Source: Pelosinus sp. UFO1 (GTDB taxonomy: Bacteria; Bacillota; Negativicutes; DSM-13327). From it: a stretch of 64,000 nt of DNA. Of this stretch, positions 30,311-34,286 are shown in pieces; within the stretch, counting starts at the first letter, position 1, and every line of letters starts with the position of its first letter. Below the pieces are notes generated by a model. That model did no database searches. It had not been told where the DNA came from and saw nothing but the letters and a program-made list of their open reading frames with translations. The DNA is taken from positions 3,154,001 to 3,218,000 of the forward strand of contig NZ_CP008852.1 of NCBI RefSeq assembly GCF_000725345.1, read 5' to 3'. Both the position numbers and the translations under genes were made by a program.

Positions 30311-30408
30311 GATCTCATATAATTTAACTTTTGTCTTTTTTAATAACGCACACCTCGCCCCCTTAATTGCATATTATGTAATAAATCACCGTAAAGGGGG
30401 ATGAACTG

Positions 30409-31659
30409 TTGTATTATTGCTTACAAGATCATTGTAAATTGGTGAAAGGCGCCAGTAGAGGTGCAATTTATAATTTTAAAACAGGAAAGGTGCACTCAAT
30501 CAACCCCAGTGCCACTCAATTACTTAGTGCCTGCCAAGGTAATGCCATCGAAACCCTGTGGGATATTACCTCTCCTGATAGCGAGCAGTATATGAATTTC
30601 TTAGAGAAACTAACAAAAACAGAATTGGGTTTGTTTCAGGAAACTGCTCCCACTTCTCTACCCGAGATTTCCTCACCCGCAGATCCTATAAAACTTGGTT
30701 TTCTTTGGTTAGAATTAACCTCGGCCTGCAATAGCAAATGCCTACATTGTTACTCAGAAAGTGGTCCTTCCCGTAAAGAGCTTGACAAAGTACCTCATGA
30801 GCGTTGGCTCTCGCTTATCGATGAAGCTAAATTAGCAGGTGCCACGGATATTCAATTGATTGGAGGAGAACCCCTCCTTTACCCTAAATGGCGGGAATTA
30901 GTTATTAAAGCCCATCAGGTTGGCTATGAATACATTGAAATTTTTACTAATGCTACTTTAATAGATGACGACTGCATTGACTTTTTTAAGCAATATAATG
31001 TTAATATTGCAACTACGATTTATGCCAATAATGCGCTTGTCCATGACCGTGTTACATTGCAACCCAATAGCTTTAATAAAACCATGAATGCGATAAAAAA
31101 ATTGATGGCCGCAAATATTCCTTTACGAATTGCTTCTATTATTATGAAGGCAAATGAAGATGAAGTTGAGAATATTCTTGCATTATATGACGAATTAGGT
31201 ATGACAGATTCCTATCCAGATGTTGTTCGTCCTACTGGTAGAGGAGATGATCAAGACTTACTCCCAACAACCTATTCAAAACCTCCTATTAGGCCCCCCT
31301 TTTATACAGATGAAACCTCCTTTACCACTGCGCATACTTATTGCCAATGCCTTGCAGGGAAGATTGCGGTAACTTCTACAGGCGATGTCATCCCCTGCAT
31401 CTTCGCAAGAAATCAACTCTGCGGTAATATCTTGACAAATTCTCTGGCTGATATATTAGAAGGTCAGCCTCTGTTACAATGTTGGCATACAACAAAGAAT
31501 CAGATCCTCAAATGTAAAGACTGTGAATATCGTTATTCCTGCTCGGATTGCCGCCCCTTAGCCCAAGGCAGTGACCTTGAAAAGCGCTGGTTAGCCTCGC
31601 CAACTGATTGCTCCTACAACCCTTATACGGGCACGTGGGAAGACGCAAAACCAACGTAA
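30409..31659 (+). CDS. radical SAM/SPASM peptide maturase of a Cys-repeat RiPP system
   Basis: The 416-residue protein has an N-terminal domain of about 100 residues (SRGAIYNFKTGKVHSI, possibly a peptide-binding wing), a radical SAM core with the cluster motif CNSKCLHC (about 111-118) and IGGEPLL, and a C-terminal SPASM domain with CQCLAGKIAVTSTGDVIPC (about 318-336), CKDCEYRYSCSDC and a final Cys. Such enzymes make thioether or other crosslinks in ribosomal peptides. The start is TTG behind GGGGG. It is followed 28 nt later by a peptide with a Cys every sixth residue, its obvious substrate. Confidence 0.9.
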   Translation: MYYCLQDHCKLVKGASRGAIYNFKTGKVHSINPSATQLLSACQGNAIETLWDITSPDSEQYMNFLEKLTKTELGLFQETAPTSLPEISSPADPIKLGFLWLELTSACNSKCLHCYSESGPSRKELDKVPHERWLSLIDEAKLAGATDIQLIGGEPLLYPKWRELVIKAHQVGYEYIEIFTNATLIDDDCIDFFKQYNVNIATTIYANNALVHDRVTLQPNSFNKTMNAIKKLMAANIPLRIASIIMKANEDEVENILALYDELGMTDSYPDVVRPTGRGDDQDLLPTTYSKPPIRPPFYTDETSFTTAHTYCQCLAGKIAVTSTGDVIPCIFARNQLCGNILTNSLADILEGQPLLQCWHTTKNQILKCKDCEYRYSCSDCRPLAQGSDLEKRWLASPTDCSYNPYTGTWEDAKPT

Positions 31660-31687
31660 CCCAATATACTTAAAGGAGGATCATAAC

Positions 31688-32083
31688 ATGTATTATGATG
31701 ATGATGATGGTAATGAAAGAAAACCTAAATGGGACAGACCAGAAATGGATGATTGGGACGATGATTACAATGATGACGATGACGAACGTGTCATAGTAGG
31801 ATGCAATCCCTCTAGTTTTTGCTTCCCTCGCCAAAGCTGTTTCCCTCGCCAAACTTGTTTCCCCCGTCAAACTTGTTTCCCCCGCCAGACTTGTTTCCCT
31901 CGCCAAACTTGTTTCCCTCGCCAAACTTGTTTCCCTCGCCAAACTTGTTTCCCTCACCAAACTTGTTTCCCTCGCCAAACTTGCTTCCCTCGCCAAACTT
32001 GCTTCCCTCGCCAAACTTGCTTCCCTAACCAGCATTGTTCCCCCCGCTTTTGCAACCCGACTTCTTCTTGCTGGCCTCGATAA
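31688..32083 (+). CDS. candidate RiPP precursor with CFPRQT hexapeptide repeats
   Basis: 131 residues behind a strong AAAGGAGG site. Residues 1-38 are an acidic leader-like segment with runs of four Asp and three Trp. From Cys39 to Cys117 a cysteine occurs exactly every six residues (14 in all), mainly as CFPRQT, with single variants CFPRQS, CFPHQT and CFPNQH; Cys122 and Cys128 follow in a less regular tail ending in CWPR. No signal peptide or membrane segment. The regular cysteine spacing plus the adjacent rSAM/SPASM gene supports a modified peptide. A metal-binding or coat-type structural protein is the alternative. Confidence 0.85.
   Translation: MYYDDDDGNERKPKWDRPEMDDWDDDYNDDDDERVIVGCNPSSFCFPRQSCFPRQTCFPRQTCFPRQTCFPRQTCFPRQTCFPRQTCFPHQTCFPRQTCFPRQTCFPRQTCFPNQHCSPRFCNPTSSCWPR
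31820..32035 (+). repeat. 12 tandem 18-bp repeats in the precursor gene
   Basis: Twelve in-frame 18-bp units of the form TGTTTCCCTCGCCAAACT. Several consecutive units are identical at DNA level, including synonymous positions; others differ by one or two bases. That points to recent expansion by slippage or recombination, and to likely copy-number variation between strains. Confidence 0.95.
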
Positions 32084-32101: not shown

Positions 32102-32127
32102 GGCACCGGTTTTTCCGGTGTCTTTTT
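32102..32127 (+). terminator. terminator of the rSAM-precursor operon
   Basis: 8-bp stem GGCACCGG / CCGGTGTC, 5-nt loop, then TTTTT, 18 nt after the precursor stop. Confidence 0.9.
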
Positions 32128-32441: not shown

Positions 32442-34286
32442 ATGATGCGATTCGTTCGGCGAATCCTTATTGGCAAACCCTTACATAATCAAGAGATGAG
32501 CCACGAAAAACTCCCAAAGTGGAAAGCACTTGCTATCTTTTCTTCAGACGCCTTATCCTCAGTGGCTTATGGCCCAGAGCAGATTATGCTGATGCTGACA
32601 CTTCCAGGAATTTTAGCCTACGGTTATTTAGCACCAATCTCGATCGCTATTTTAGCTCTTTTAGCAATTGTAACTTTTTCTTATGTACAAGTAGCCAAGG
32701 CGAATCCAGGGGGTGGCGGTTCTTACTCCGTTGCTATTACTCACTTGGGCGAATTACCAGCCCTTACGGCAGCAGCTGCCCTATTTGCAGATTATACACT
32801 GACCGTAGCGGTAAGCGTATCTGCAGGAACAGCTGCTATTATTTCAGCGTTTCCTACACTAGCGCAACATGAAGTTCCCATCGATTTAGCTATTTTATTT
32901 GGCATTTTAATGCTAGTGAATTTACGGGGCGTTCGGGAATCTTCTACTGCATTTGTGTTTCCAACTTATGCATTCATTTTTGGTATTATTGCGTTGATTG
33001 TTACGGGAATTTTCCAAACAATTACCAACCATACACCTGTTATCCCTCCTGAATCCCTAACAAAACAAATGGATTGGACCGTTGTCGTACTTATTCTACG
33101 TGCTTTTGCAAATGGTTGCAGCTCGATGACTGGAGTTGAGGCTATCTCTAATGGCGTTCCTATGTTTCGCTCCCCTGAGGTACGCAACGCTACATTAACA
33201 ACTTATTGGATGTCAGGAATCCTTGGACTTATGTTTATTGGTACTTCTTTCTTAACCATGCATTTTCACATTTTACCTTTAGAAGATGTAACGGCTTTAT
33301 CACAAATCGCAGAATTAACTTTTGGACGTAATTGGGCTTATTATTACATACAAATTACTACTATGCTGGTATTATATCTGGCTGCTAATACTTCCTTTAA
33401 CGGTTTGCCTCCCCTGCTATCTATTCTAGCAAAAGATGGTTATATGCCCCGCTATTTAGGGGTGCGTGGTGAACGTTTAAGCTTCTCTAATGGTATTGTA
33501 CTCCTTAGCATTATTGCCGGCATTTTAATCGTTATCTACCACGGCAATACGGAACATTTAATTTCCTTATATGCCATTGGCGTTTTCCTTTCCTTTACCA
33601 TTGCTCAGGTAGGGATGGTGGTTCACTGGCGAAAAGAACGAAGCCCTGGCTGGATTGTACGATCTACTGTAAATTCAGTAGGTGCCCTTGTAACTGGAAT
33701 TGTTGTACTTATTATTGCTATCACGAAATTTTTCTATGGTGCCTGGTTAGTTCTTGTATTTATACCTGTGATGATTTTCATCTTCAAAAAAATTCGTTCT
33801 CATTATAATGATATGGCTGAACAGCTGCACTTACCAGTAGAAGATTTCAATCCAGAAGAGGAAGCAAATCTTAAAACTGGTAGAAATGTAGTTATTGTGC
33901 CTATTTCTACCCCTACTGGTGTAGTAGCGCAGACCCTTAAATATGCGAAAAGCATTAGTAATGATGTCATCGCTCTGCACATTGCAACGGATGAAGAAGT
34001 TGGTAAAAGAGTAGAAGTAAAATGGCAGGGATGGAATCCTGGTGTTGAATTAGTCACCATTTACTCTCCTTATCGTTTAGTGATCCAACCCCTCTTAGAT
34101 TATATAAGTAATTTAGAACGTCAAAGGAATCCAGAAGACTATATTACAATCTTAATTCCTGAATTCCAAACTAAAAAATTGTGGCATCGTCTTTTGCACA
34201 ATCAAACAGGCTGGATTCTTCGGACCTTACTAATTTTGAAGGAGAACGTTATCGTAACCACGATTCCCTTCCACTTAAAAAAATAA
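32442..34286 (+). CDS. kimA: KimA-type potassium/proton symporter (APC superfamily)
   Basis: The 614-residue protein has a cytoplasmic N-terminus (KLPKWKALAIFSSDALSSVAYGPEQ), about twelve membrane helices with the APC-like NPGGGGSYSVA near helix 3, and a C-terminal cytosolic domain of about 150 residues (VVIVPISTPTGVVAQTL), the layout of KimA/YdaO. KimA imports K+ and in Bacillus is inhibited by c-di-AMP. A generic amino acid permease is the alternative, but the N-terminal motif and C-terminal domain favour KimA. Confidence 0.82.
   Translation: MMRFVRRILIGKPLHNQEMSHEKLPKWKALAIFSSDALSSVAYGPEQIMLMLTLPGILAYGYLAPISIAILALLAIVTFSYVQVAKANPGGGGSYSVAITHLGELPALTAAAALFADYTLTVAVSVSAGTAAIISAFPTLAQHEVPIDLAILFGILMLVNLRGVRESSTAFVFPTYAFIFGIIALIVTGIFQTITNHTPVIPPESLTKQMDWTVVVLILRAFANGCSSMTGVEAISNGVPMFRSPEVRNATLTTYWMSGILGLMFIGTSFLTMHFHILPLEDVTALSQIAELTFGRNWAYYYIQITTMLVLYLAANTSFNGLPPLLSILAKDGYMPRYLGVRGERLSFSNGIVLLSIIAGILIVIYHGNTEHLISLYAIGVFLSFTIAQVGMVVHWRKERSPGWIVRSTVNSVGALVTGIVVLIIAITKFFYGAWLVLVFIPVMIFIFKKIRSHYNDMAEQLHLPVEDFNPEEEANLKTGRNVVIVPISTPTGVVAQTLKYAKSISNDVIALHIATDEEVGKRVEVKWQGWNPGVELVTIYSPYRLVIQPLLDYISNLERQRNPEDYITILIPEFQTKKLWHRLLHNQTGWILRTLLILKENVIVTTIPFHLKK

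Follow-up and report, generated by a model that had tools for sequence, protein, structure and literature searches.

A predicted RRE-radical SAM/SPASM maturase and a dispersed family of C-x-P repeat peptides in sporulating Negativicutes

We analyzed a 64,000-nucleotide stretch of DNA from Pelosinus sp. UFO1 (the window; C1:3154001-3218000 of the 5.1-Mb single-contig genome), in which the gene for a radical S-adenosylmethionine (rSAM)/SPASM enzyme stands directly before that for a cysteine-rich repeat peptide. By sequence and structure model, the enzyme joins an N-terminal domain like a RiPP recognition element (RRE; RiPP, ribosomally synthesized and post-translationally modified peptide) to rSAM and SPASM domains, such enzymes, including distant homologues, are linked to peptides made of Cys-x-Pro (C-x-P) units, and the peptides have a common leader and a common promoter. 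Among 120 genomes (that of the window plus 119 from relatives), the enzyme is nearly restricted to those bearing SpoIVA. We favor, with moderate confidence, the reading that one maturase acts on many co-regulated proteins of the mother cell, destined for the spore surface, and modifies the cysteines of their C-x-P units, probably to thioethers. The features of the locus are as follows.

30350..30380, + strand: putative promoter ACACC-N-CATATTATGTA, with the -35 AC at 30350 or 30352 and the -10 box CATATTAT at 30370
30409..31659, + strand: RRE-rSAM/SPASM maturase, 416 amino acids (open reading frame (ORF), Pfam, alignment, AlphaFold/Foldseek)
30409..30648, + strand: RRE-like N-terminal domain, residues 1-80 (separate AlphaFold model, Foldseek)
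30727..30750, + strand: radical SAM CX3CX2C motif CNSKCLHC, residues 107-114 (sequence, alignment)
31342..31611, + strand: SPASM domain region with seven invariant Cys (314-401) (Pfam, alignment)
31688..32083, + strand: linked C-x-P repeat peptide, 131 amino acids (ORF)
31688..31801, + strand: peptide leader, 38 residues, with the motif PKWDRPEMDDWDDD, common to five unlinked paralogues
31802..32080, + strand: peptide core of (CFPRQT)n and degenerate C-x-P units, 16 Cys (tandem-repeat and period analysis)
32103..32127, + strand: terminator-like hairpin followed by T5, read by eye from the sequence without a scan

The rSAM gene starts with TTG behind a strong ribosome-binding site, AAAGGGGG, and the peptide gene with ATG behind AAAGGAGG; both lie on the + strand with a gap of 28 bases, and the adjacency described in the initial annotation was thus borne out, as was its acidic 38-residue leader ahead of the first Cys. 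Fourteen of the 16 Cys (residues 39 to 117) recur at an exact six-residue period, and none of 20000 shuffles of the core reached the observed 14 equal gaps; in the DNA, the array is an 18-bp tandem repeat of 11.6 copies with 93% matches (31819-32026). In Pfam, the peptide matched only Drf_FH1 (19.6 against a cut-off of 40 bits), which we took for low complexity, and in NCBIfam nothing at E<=1. When seven other peptides of the family were compared with NCBIfam (whether this library holds a CXXX-repeat model was left unchecked), five had no match, one reached 13.1 against 15.7 bits with a bacteriocin signal model, and one 19.1 against 40 bits with the elgicin lantibiotic model.

Radical_SAM and SPASM exceeded their Pfam cut-offs in the enzyme; no NCBIfam model did so among the best 25 of 75, where the highest score was that of the grasp-with-spasm maturase (TIGR04193; 111.9 against 175 bits, best stretch C-terminal). 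The SPASM residues Cys314, 330, 369, 372, 378, 381, and 401 were invariant in 27 sequences, and Cys338 was not. Among solved relatives, profile comparison placed SkfB first (7.5e-28) and CteB next (2.3e-14). The AlphaFold model of the full enzyme had a predicted local distance difference test score (pLDDT) of 80.8 and a predicted template-modeling (TM) score of 0.80, and Foldseek returned SkfB and CteB first, then SuiB, TigE, and anSME. The VIA-align Z scores were 21.4 for SkfB, 20.8 for CteB, 19.9 for SuiB, and 19.4 for anSME, the lowest-ranked of which are close to a tie. The structural alignment with CteB covers residues 7-389 at 16-17% identity. Since residues 1-90 were barely covered by VIA-align, the N-terminal 91 residues were modelled alone (pLDDT 84.6). 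The first four Foldseek rows were then lasso-peptide B1 RREs (probability 1.00, TM 0.66-0.67), followed by CteB, LynD, ThcOx, and PbtF (0.80-1.00 over the first 12 rows), with weak E-values, the best being 1.6e-3 and none under 0.001. The whole enzymes in these rows, LynD among them, presumably align by way of their RREs. According to the accessible part of PMC5682303, the radical SAM/SPASM enzyme anSME has eight SPASM Cys and AlbA seven. Together, the relatives and the seven SPASM Cys seem to lean towards thioether chemistry, short of proof.

The hexapeptide CFPRQT, taken in the initial annotation to define a class, proved to be a local version of a more general unit. In 60 peptide sequences, selected by the leader motif and at least three C-x-P (the set leaves aside eight loci, L070, L071, L073, L074, L141-L143, and L146, and contains orthologues that are almost identical as well as a truncated second copy of the window peptide, L128), Pro stood at +2 of 703 of the 719 Cys. 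On the other hand, position +1 was F (22%), W (19%), Y (13%), N (12%), R (11%), or S (9%), R occupied +3 in 53%, and Q and T varied as well. The spacing between successive Cys was 6 (264 cases), 5 (175), 4 (119), 7 (58), or other (43). A six-residue period as the defining feature was thus ruled out, the units being mostly of 4-7 residues, and it is C-x-P that is conserved. As Pro at +2 is the sole fixed residue besides Cys, the acceptor of a crosslink may lie within the unit, or Pro may set a turn that the enzyme requires.

The same rule was found beside distant enzymes. The five of these that were found (33-37% identity; L073, L074, L141-L143), from a Clostridia metagenome-assembled genome (L073), an unplaced bacterium (L074), G116 (L143), G058, and G078, all stood beside C-x-P peptides, some with quite different leaders. 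Pro was at +2 of 67 of the 74 core Cys in 12 such peptides (56 of 60 in an earlier count of nine of the 12), a figure biased upward because the peptides were found through a C-x-P filter. The window genome has five other rSAM matches (L010-L014), and a similar ORF filter applied to about 1.5 kb on each side of these listed no C-x-P peptide. The recurrence beside distant enzymes is the strongest reason for regarding the peptides as substrates and C-x-P as the target, and the peptides are very probably what the enzyme acts upon. In G058 and G078, four and five tandem peptides with double-glycine leaders precede a second enzyme (L141:973-2151 and L142:815-2343, 33-34% related), and these arrays are likely an exported cousin of the system.

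The system is also wider than the two genes that had been proposed, since the window genome holds one enzyme and six peptides. Five further peptide sites (C1:4841933, 2499394, 1907824, 2442616, and 1957768) are unlinked to the enzyme gene, carry a leader of the same type as that of the window peptide (W..P.I..W), and consist mostly of C-[FWS]-P-R units. A second full-length enzyme copy is absent from this genome, the next match being 31% over 182 residues. In 22 leaders, chosen and trimmed by hand, W15 and P18 were invariant and P13 and K14 nearly so. G006 has a second full-length enzyme (G006:C6:150332-151573, L144), 61% identical to that of the window, with no C-x-P peptide listed nearby.

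Full-length orthologues of the enzyme occurred in 44 of the 120 genomes, the window's own included (50-97% identity in the others; G116, with only a 33% match, was excluded and would be the 45th). The peptide profile matched 43 genomes, 41 of which carry the enzyme. The two others were G007, whose genome is 85% complete, and G117, where the match (E 0.006) is probably due to chance. Of the three enzyme-bearing genomes without a profile match (G025, G027, and G028), G027 (at 2 kb) and G028 have C-x-P peptides near the enzyme. More than one profile match was found in 31 of the 41 genomes and a single one in 10, where several matches may fall within one peptide. A peptide with at least three C-x-P adjoined the enzyme in 34 of the 44 (33 within 1.5 kb and one at 2 kb; flanks varied by locus, about 1.5 kb in most, and adjacency in G003, G074, and G082 was taken from search coordinates). 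These include the frameshifted peptide of G004 and the diverged one of G043, with three C-x-P. The co-occurrence across genomes that the initial annotation proposed to check was found. Peptide homologues without a linked rSAM enzyme, which it had set against the pairing, are literally present, and they do not refute it because 41 of the 43 peptide-matching genomes hold the enzyme. The five unlinked sister peptides, the promoter at 30350-30380, and the C-x-P rule go beyond that annotation. In the complete genome of Pelosinus fermentans JBW45 (L018, L045), whose enzyme neighbourhood is that of G004, a frameshift interrupts the repeat of the enzyme-adjacent peptide gene, while matches to the profile are found in copies at other sites.

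The dispersed genes share one promoter type. The five unlinked peptide genes have TCAC-N-CATATTRTGTATA upstream in common, and the rSAM gene CACACC-N-CATATTATGTAATAAA. The pattern ACYCN{13,17}CATATTRTGTA, written from these five peptide genes, had six matches in the window genome, five of them ahead of the unlinked peptides, and none in the reversed control. The sixth (L109, G000:C1:3587710) lies upstream of an ORF resembling, by reading, a beta-carbonic anhydrase. Of the orthologous rSAM genes, 39 were examined and 29 have exact CATATTATG upstream. The same holds for 25 of 31 non-operon peptides, with 0.085 expected by shuffling (the 31 include Pelosinus orthologues and three peptides upstream of the enzyme, and are not independent); the exact sequence was found in none of the 10 spoIVA regions used for comparison. 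Among promoters with this exact box, AC stood at a gap of 17 in 21 of the 25 for non-operon peptides and in 15 of the 21 for rSAM genes. The wider pattern ACN{15,18}CATATTATGTA gave 222 matches against 32 for the control in the 44 enzyme-bearing genomes, only two of which (G010 and G098) have none; the remaining 76 gave 30 matches against 34 for the control, and there the peptide-bearing G007 supplied seven and the SpoIVA-only G014, G032, and G048 none. All patterns were written after viewing Pelosinus sequences, and a -10 box with two AC inside the permitted range may count twice, which applies to the control as well as to the pattern.

According to the accessible part of PMC3789822, the -10 boxes of sigma-E and sigma-K promoters in C. 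difficile are much alike, and it is the -35 element that tells them apart, ATA for sigma-E and AC for sigma-K. In the promoters described here, AC at -35 mostly stands 16-18 bp from a mother-cell type -10 box, as in that C. difficile consensus, and this points to sigma-K, whose control of the system is suggested by promoter sequence. Expression during sporulation is quite probable, and location on the spore surface is probable. A promoter of sporulation type agrees with the suggestion of the initial annotation that the product may remain in the cell or spore.

The search for further members with the loose pattern ACN{15,19}CATATTATG gave 32 matches in the window genome against 21 for the control, so that most may be due to chance. 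On reading 30 of these loci, four genes behind AC-N-CATATTATG seemed of interest: L121:1560-1742, a 61-residue Cys/His-rich protein and the sole one with the full CATATTATGTA; L133:1558-1923 and L113:1562-1843, unknown small proteins; and L132:1572-2420, a class 3 lipase with a Cys-rich tail. No Pfam or NCBIfam match above cut-off was obtained for L113, L121, or L133, and L121 is the only fair candidate, the loose pattern being little above its control. For the relatives, 30 promoter loci were fetched and 29 read out; by a start rule for the downstream gene, and with genomes lacking the enzyme included, two led to the enzyme, six to C-x-P peptides, five to other ORFs, and 16 to none.

In the window genome, sigK is interrupted (G000:C1:2765390-2785424; L272, L273, L276, L277): some 19 kb separate its two halves, which lie on the same strand, and a serine recombinase gene adjoins the N-terminal one. 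This is a skin-like element as in B. subtilis. Between the halves, L276:4713-5204 encodes a 164-residue protein that starts with MGSYKSRGNCMPRCDCMPSCEPMPMCEPMCEPMPRC and has several Cys in C-x-P, no W..P leader, and no CATATTATG seen upstream.

SpoIVA was found in 45 of the 120 genomes: 41 have it together with the enzyme, three have the enzyme only (G005, G037, and G043), four SpoIVA only (G007, G014, G032, and G048), and 72 neither. The association was strong when relatedness was ignored (Fisher p = 7.6e-24). The distance between the enzyme gene and clpX was below 7.5 kb in 38 of 44 genomes and 14.6 kb in one, with the two on different contigs in five, and this synteny indicates a core gene of the lineage and not an island. 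An origin from mobile elements was not supported, since all matches in phages (12 records, three covering at least 80% at 21-24%) and plasmids (198 records, none covering 80%) were below 60% identity. Ruminiclostridium sufflavum (L071) has a 60% identical enzyme with a partly masked (CPPSQCRP)n peptide upstream, probably the result of horizontal transfer.

Several observations weigh against the reading we favor. G014, G032, and G048 have SpoIVA and no enzyme, G025 has both enzyme and SpoIVA, yet no peptide was found, and no peptide adjoins 10 of the 44 enzymes (G010, G011, G013, G017, G025, G034, G046, G070, G098, and G110, the last keeping a leader-only match beside the enzyme). G010 and G098 carry the enzyme without any match to ACN{15,18}CATATTATGTA. 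The SpoIVA association comes mostly from one large clade (within which G015, G021, G024, and G030 lack both enzyme and SpoIVA), and a phylogenetically controlled test was not significant (three supported independent pairs, p = 1). This test used a ClpX tree built by a quick method from 80 of the 117 matching genomes, on which the enzyme changed six times and SpoIVA nine, leaving too few supported pairs. In the accessible part of PMC3789822, only AC at -35 separates sigma-K from sigma-E in C. difficile, and the exact box CATATTAT stands in a C. difficile sigK promoter that resembles those of sigma-E. The yabG gene of the window genome has CATAGTATG upstream without AC at the expected place (upstream box CATAGTATGTAATAA, one mismatch), and its C. 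difficile relative is controlled by sigma-K in the same source. Finally, a spacing of four residues leaves scant room for conventional sactionine rings.

On the favored reading, sporulating Negativicutes would have a peptide-modification system that is chromosomal and for the most part inherited vertically. At a late stage of sporulation, RNA polymerase with sigma-K in the mother cell would transcribe the rSAM-peptide operon and the unlinked peptide genes from one promoter type. The N-terminal RRE would bind the leader PKWxxPExxDW, common to all the peptides, and the radical SAM and SPASM clusters would work along the repeat, altering the Cys in one C-x-P unit after another; the most likely change is an intramolecular thioether between this Cys and a nearby residue within its unit. 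The resulting proteins, rich in Cys, Pro, and Arg, would stay unexported and assemble on the spore as coat- or exosporium-like material. A thioether product is put forward tentatively, and we file the system under RRE-rSAM/SPASM peptide maturation rather than under sactipeptides or ranthipeptides, classes defined by bond type.

A different product of the same pair at the same time, C-alpha-formylglycine (or another ringless change) in place of Cys, with aldehyde arrays that crosslink the spore surface, seems unlikely. C-x-P opens the sulfatase motif C-x-P-x-R in which anSME acts, and anSME is among the best fold matches (Z 19.4 versus 21.4 for SkfB); however, anSME needs Arg at +4, rare in the C-x-P peptides here (8% of the 719 Cys, against 53% for Arg at +3), and SkfB and CteB surpass it in profile score. 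It is a radical SAM/SPASM enzyme too, but with eight SPASM Cys versus the seven invariant ones here (accessible part of PMC5682303).

It is similarly improbable that the peptides are a secreted bacteriocin or signal of sporulation, like the sporulation killing factor, and not structural material. SkfB is the best solved relative, the two distant sister enzymes are accompanied by double-glycine leader peptides, which are usually exported, and a permease-like ORF (32442-34286, by reading) lies next downstream in the window, 358 bases off, and also in P. fermentans; it was not seen in three more distant relatives read (L054, L059, and L061). On the other hand, the orthologous peptides showed no double-glycine leader and are numerous, long, and dispersed, and the neighbourhood is core genome: upstream of the rSAM gene are a tRNA gene on the opposite strand and, beyond it, tig, clpP, and clpX by reading of ORFs. 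The initial annotation had reported no adjacent protease, transporter, or immunity gene; this holds insofar as no dedicated protease, exporter, or immunity gene was recognized by reading (the flanking genes were not searched by family), and gives way at the permease-like ORF.

Three-residue cyclophanes (aromatic-Pro-Arg), with Cys that only form disulfides, are very unlikely. An aromatic-x-x motif would suit the CFPR units of the window, the F, W, or Y that follows 54% of the Cys, and the R found at +3 in 53%, but N, R, S, Q, and P are also frequent at +1, CNPxCRPx makes up most of some orthologous peptides, and the constants, beside distant enzymes too, are Cys and Pro rather than an aromatic residue. 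It is equally unlikely that the peptides are unmodified coat or metal-binding proteins beside an enzyme with another target, for although C. difficile has Cys-rich spore-surface proteins (accessible part of PMC6101409), the RRE-like domain with a common leader, the recurrence of C-x-P beside 33-37% homologues with other leaders, and the lack of listed C-x-P peptides in the flanks (about 1.5 kb) of the window genome's other five rSAM matches speak against it.

The known rSAM/SPASM peptide maturases mostly act on one precursor or a few, encoded nearby, and yield antibiotics, signals, or cofactors. In the present case, one enzyme of the core genome seems to be responsible for a whole family of repetitive proteins that are dispersed, co-regulated, and part of a developmental programme, and we found no report of such a system in the open-access literature. 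One sigma-K-controlled RRE-rSAM enzyme could, as we tentatively suggest, turn the Cys of dozens of dispersed C-x-P units into a covalent ladder (thioether- or aldehyde-derived), which would make the spore surface of Sporomusa-type anaerobes a RiPP-like material rather than one of disulfide- or transglutaminase-linked proteins. If true, this would provide a new motif-level rule (C-x-P) for the enzyme class, a new function of RiPP-type chemistry as structural material with a new chemical route to the spore surface, and a testable handle on that surface in Sporomusa-type spore-formers; the common leader and promoter ease the finding of new members.

Among known systems, SkfB (a sactisynthase; PDB 6efn) is closest by profile and Foldseek and shares the radical SAM/SPASM core and the sporulation context, but belongs to a killing-factor system, whereas the peptides here are repetitive, encoded at many loci, and without a recognized exporter. 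CteB (thioether-forming; PDB 5wgg, 5why) has the same succession of RRE, rSAM, and SPASM at 16-17% identity, and its substrate is a short Cys-rich peptide in contrast to the arrays of C-x-P units. anSME shares the rSAM/SPASM architecture and a target Cys in C-x-P. Its eight SPASM Cys set it apart from the enzyme here, which agrees with AlbA in having seven (accessible part of PMC5682303). The grasp-with-spasm maturase (TIGR04193) gave the best NCBIfam score among the best 25 of 75, but under the cut-off, and no ATP-grasp gene was recognized nearby by reading. Cys-rich exosporium proteins of C. difficile are known as CdeC-type; no rSAM partner or RiPP-type leader is known for them, and the likeness is one of description. 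They are sporulation-specific Cys-rich surface proteins in the accessible part of PMC6101409, as the peptides here probably are. TvgB, as far as the accessible part of PMC9062424 describes it, differs in its motif (TVGG), its cyclopropylglycine product, and its five-gene cluster with peptidase and transporter genes, and resembles the present enzyme in being an rSAM enzyme that works repeatedly along a repeat peptide.

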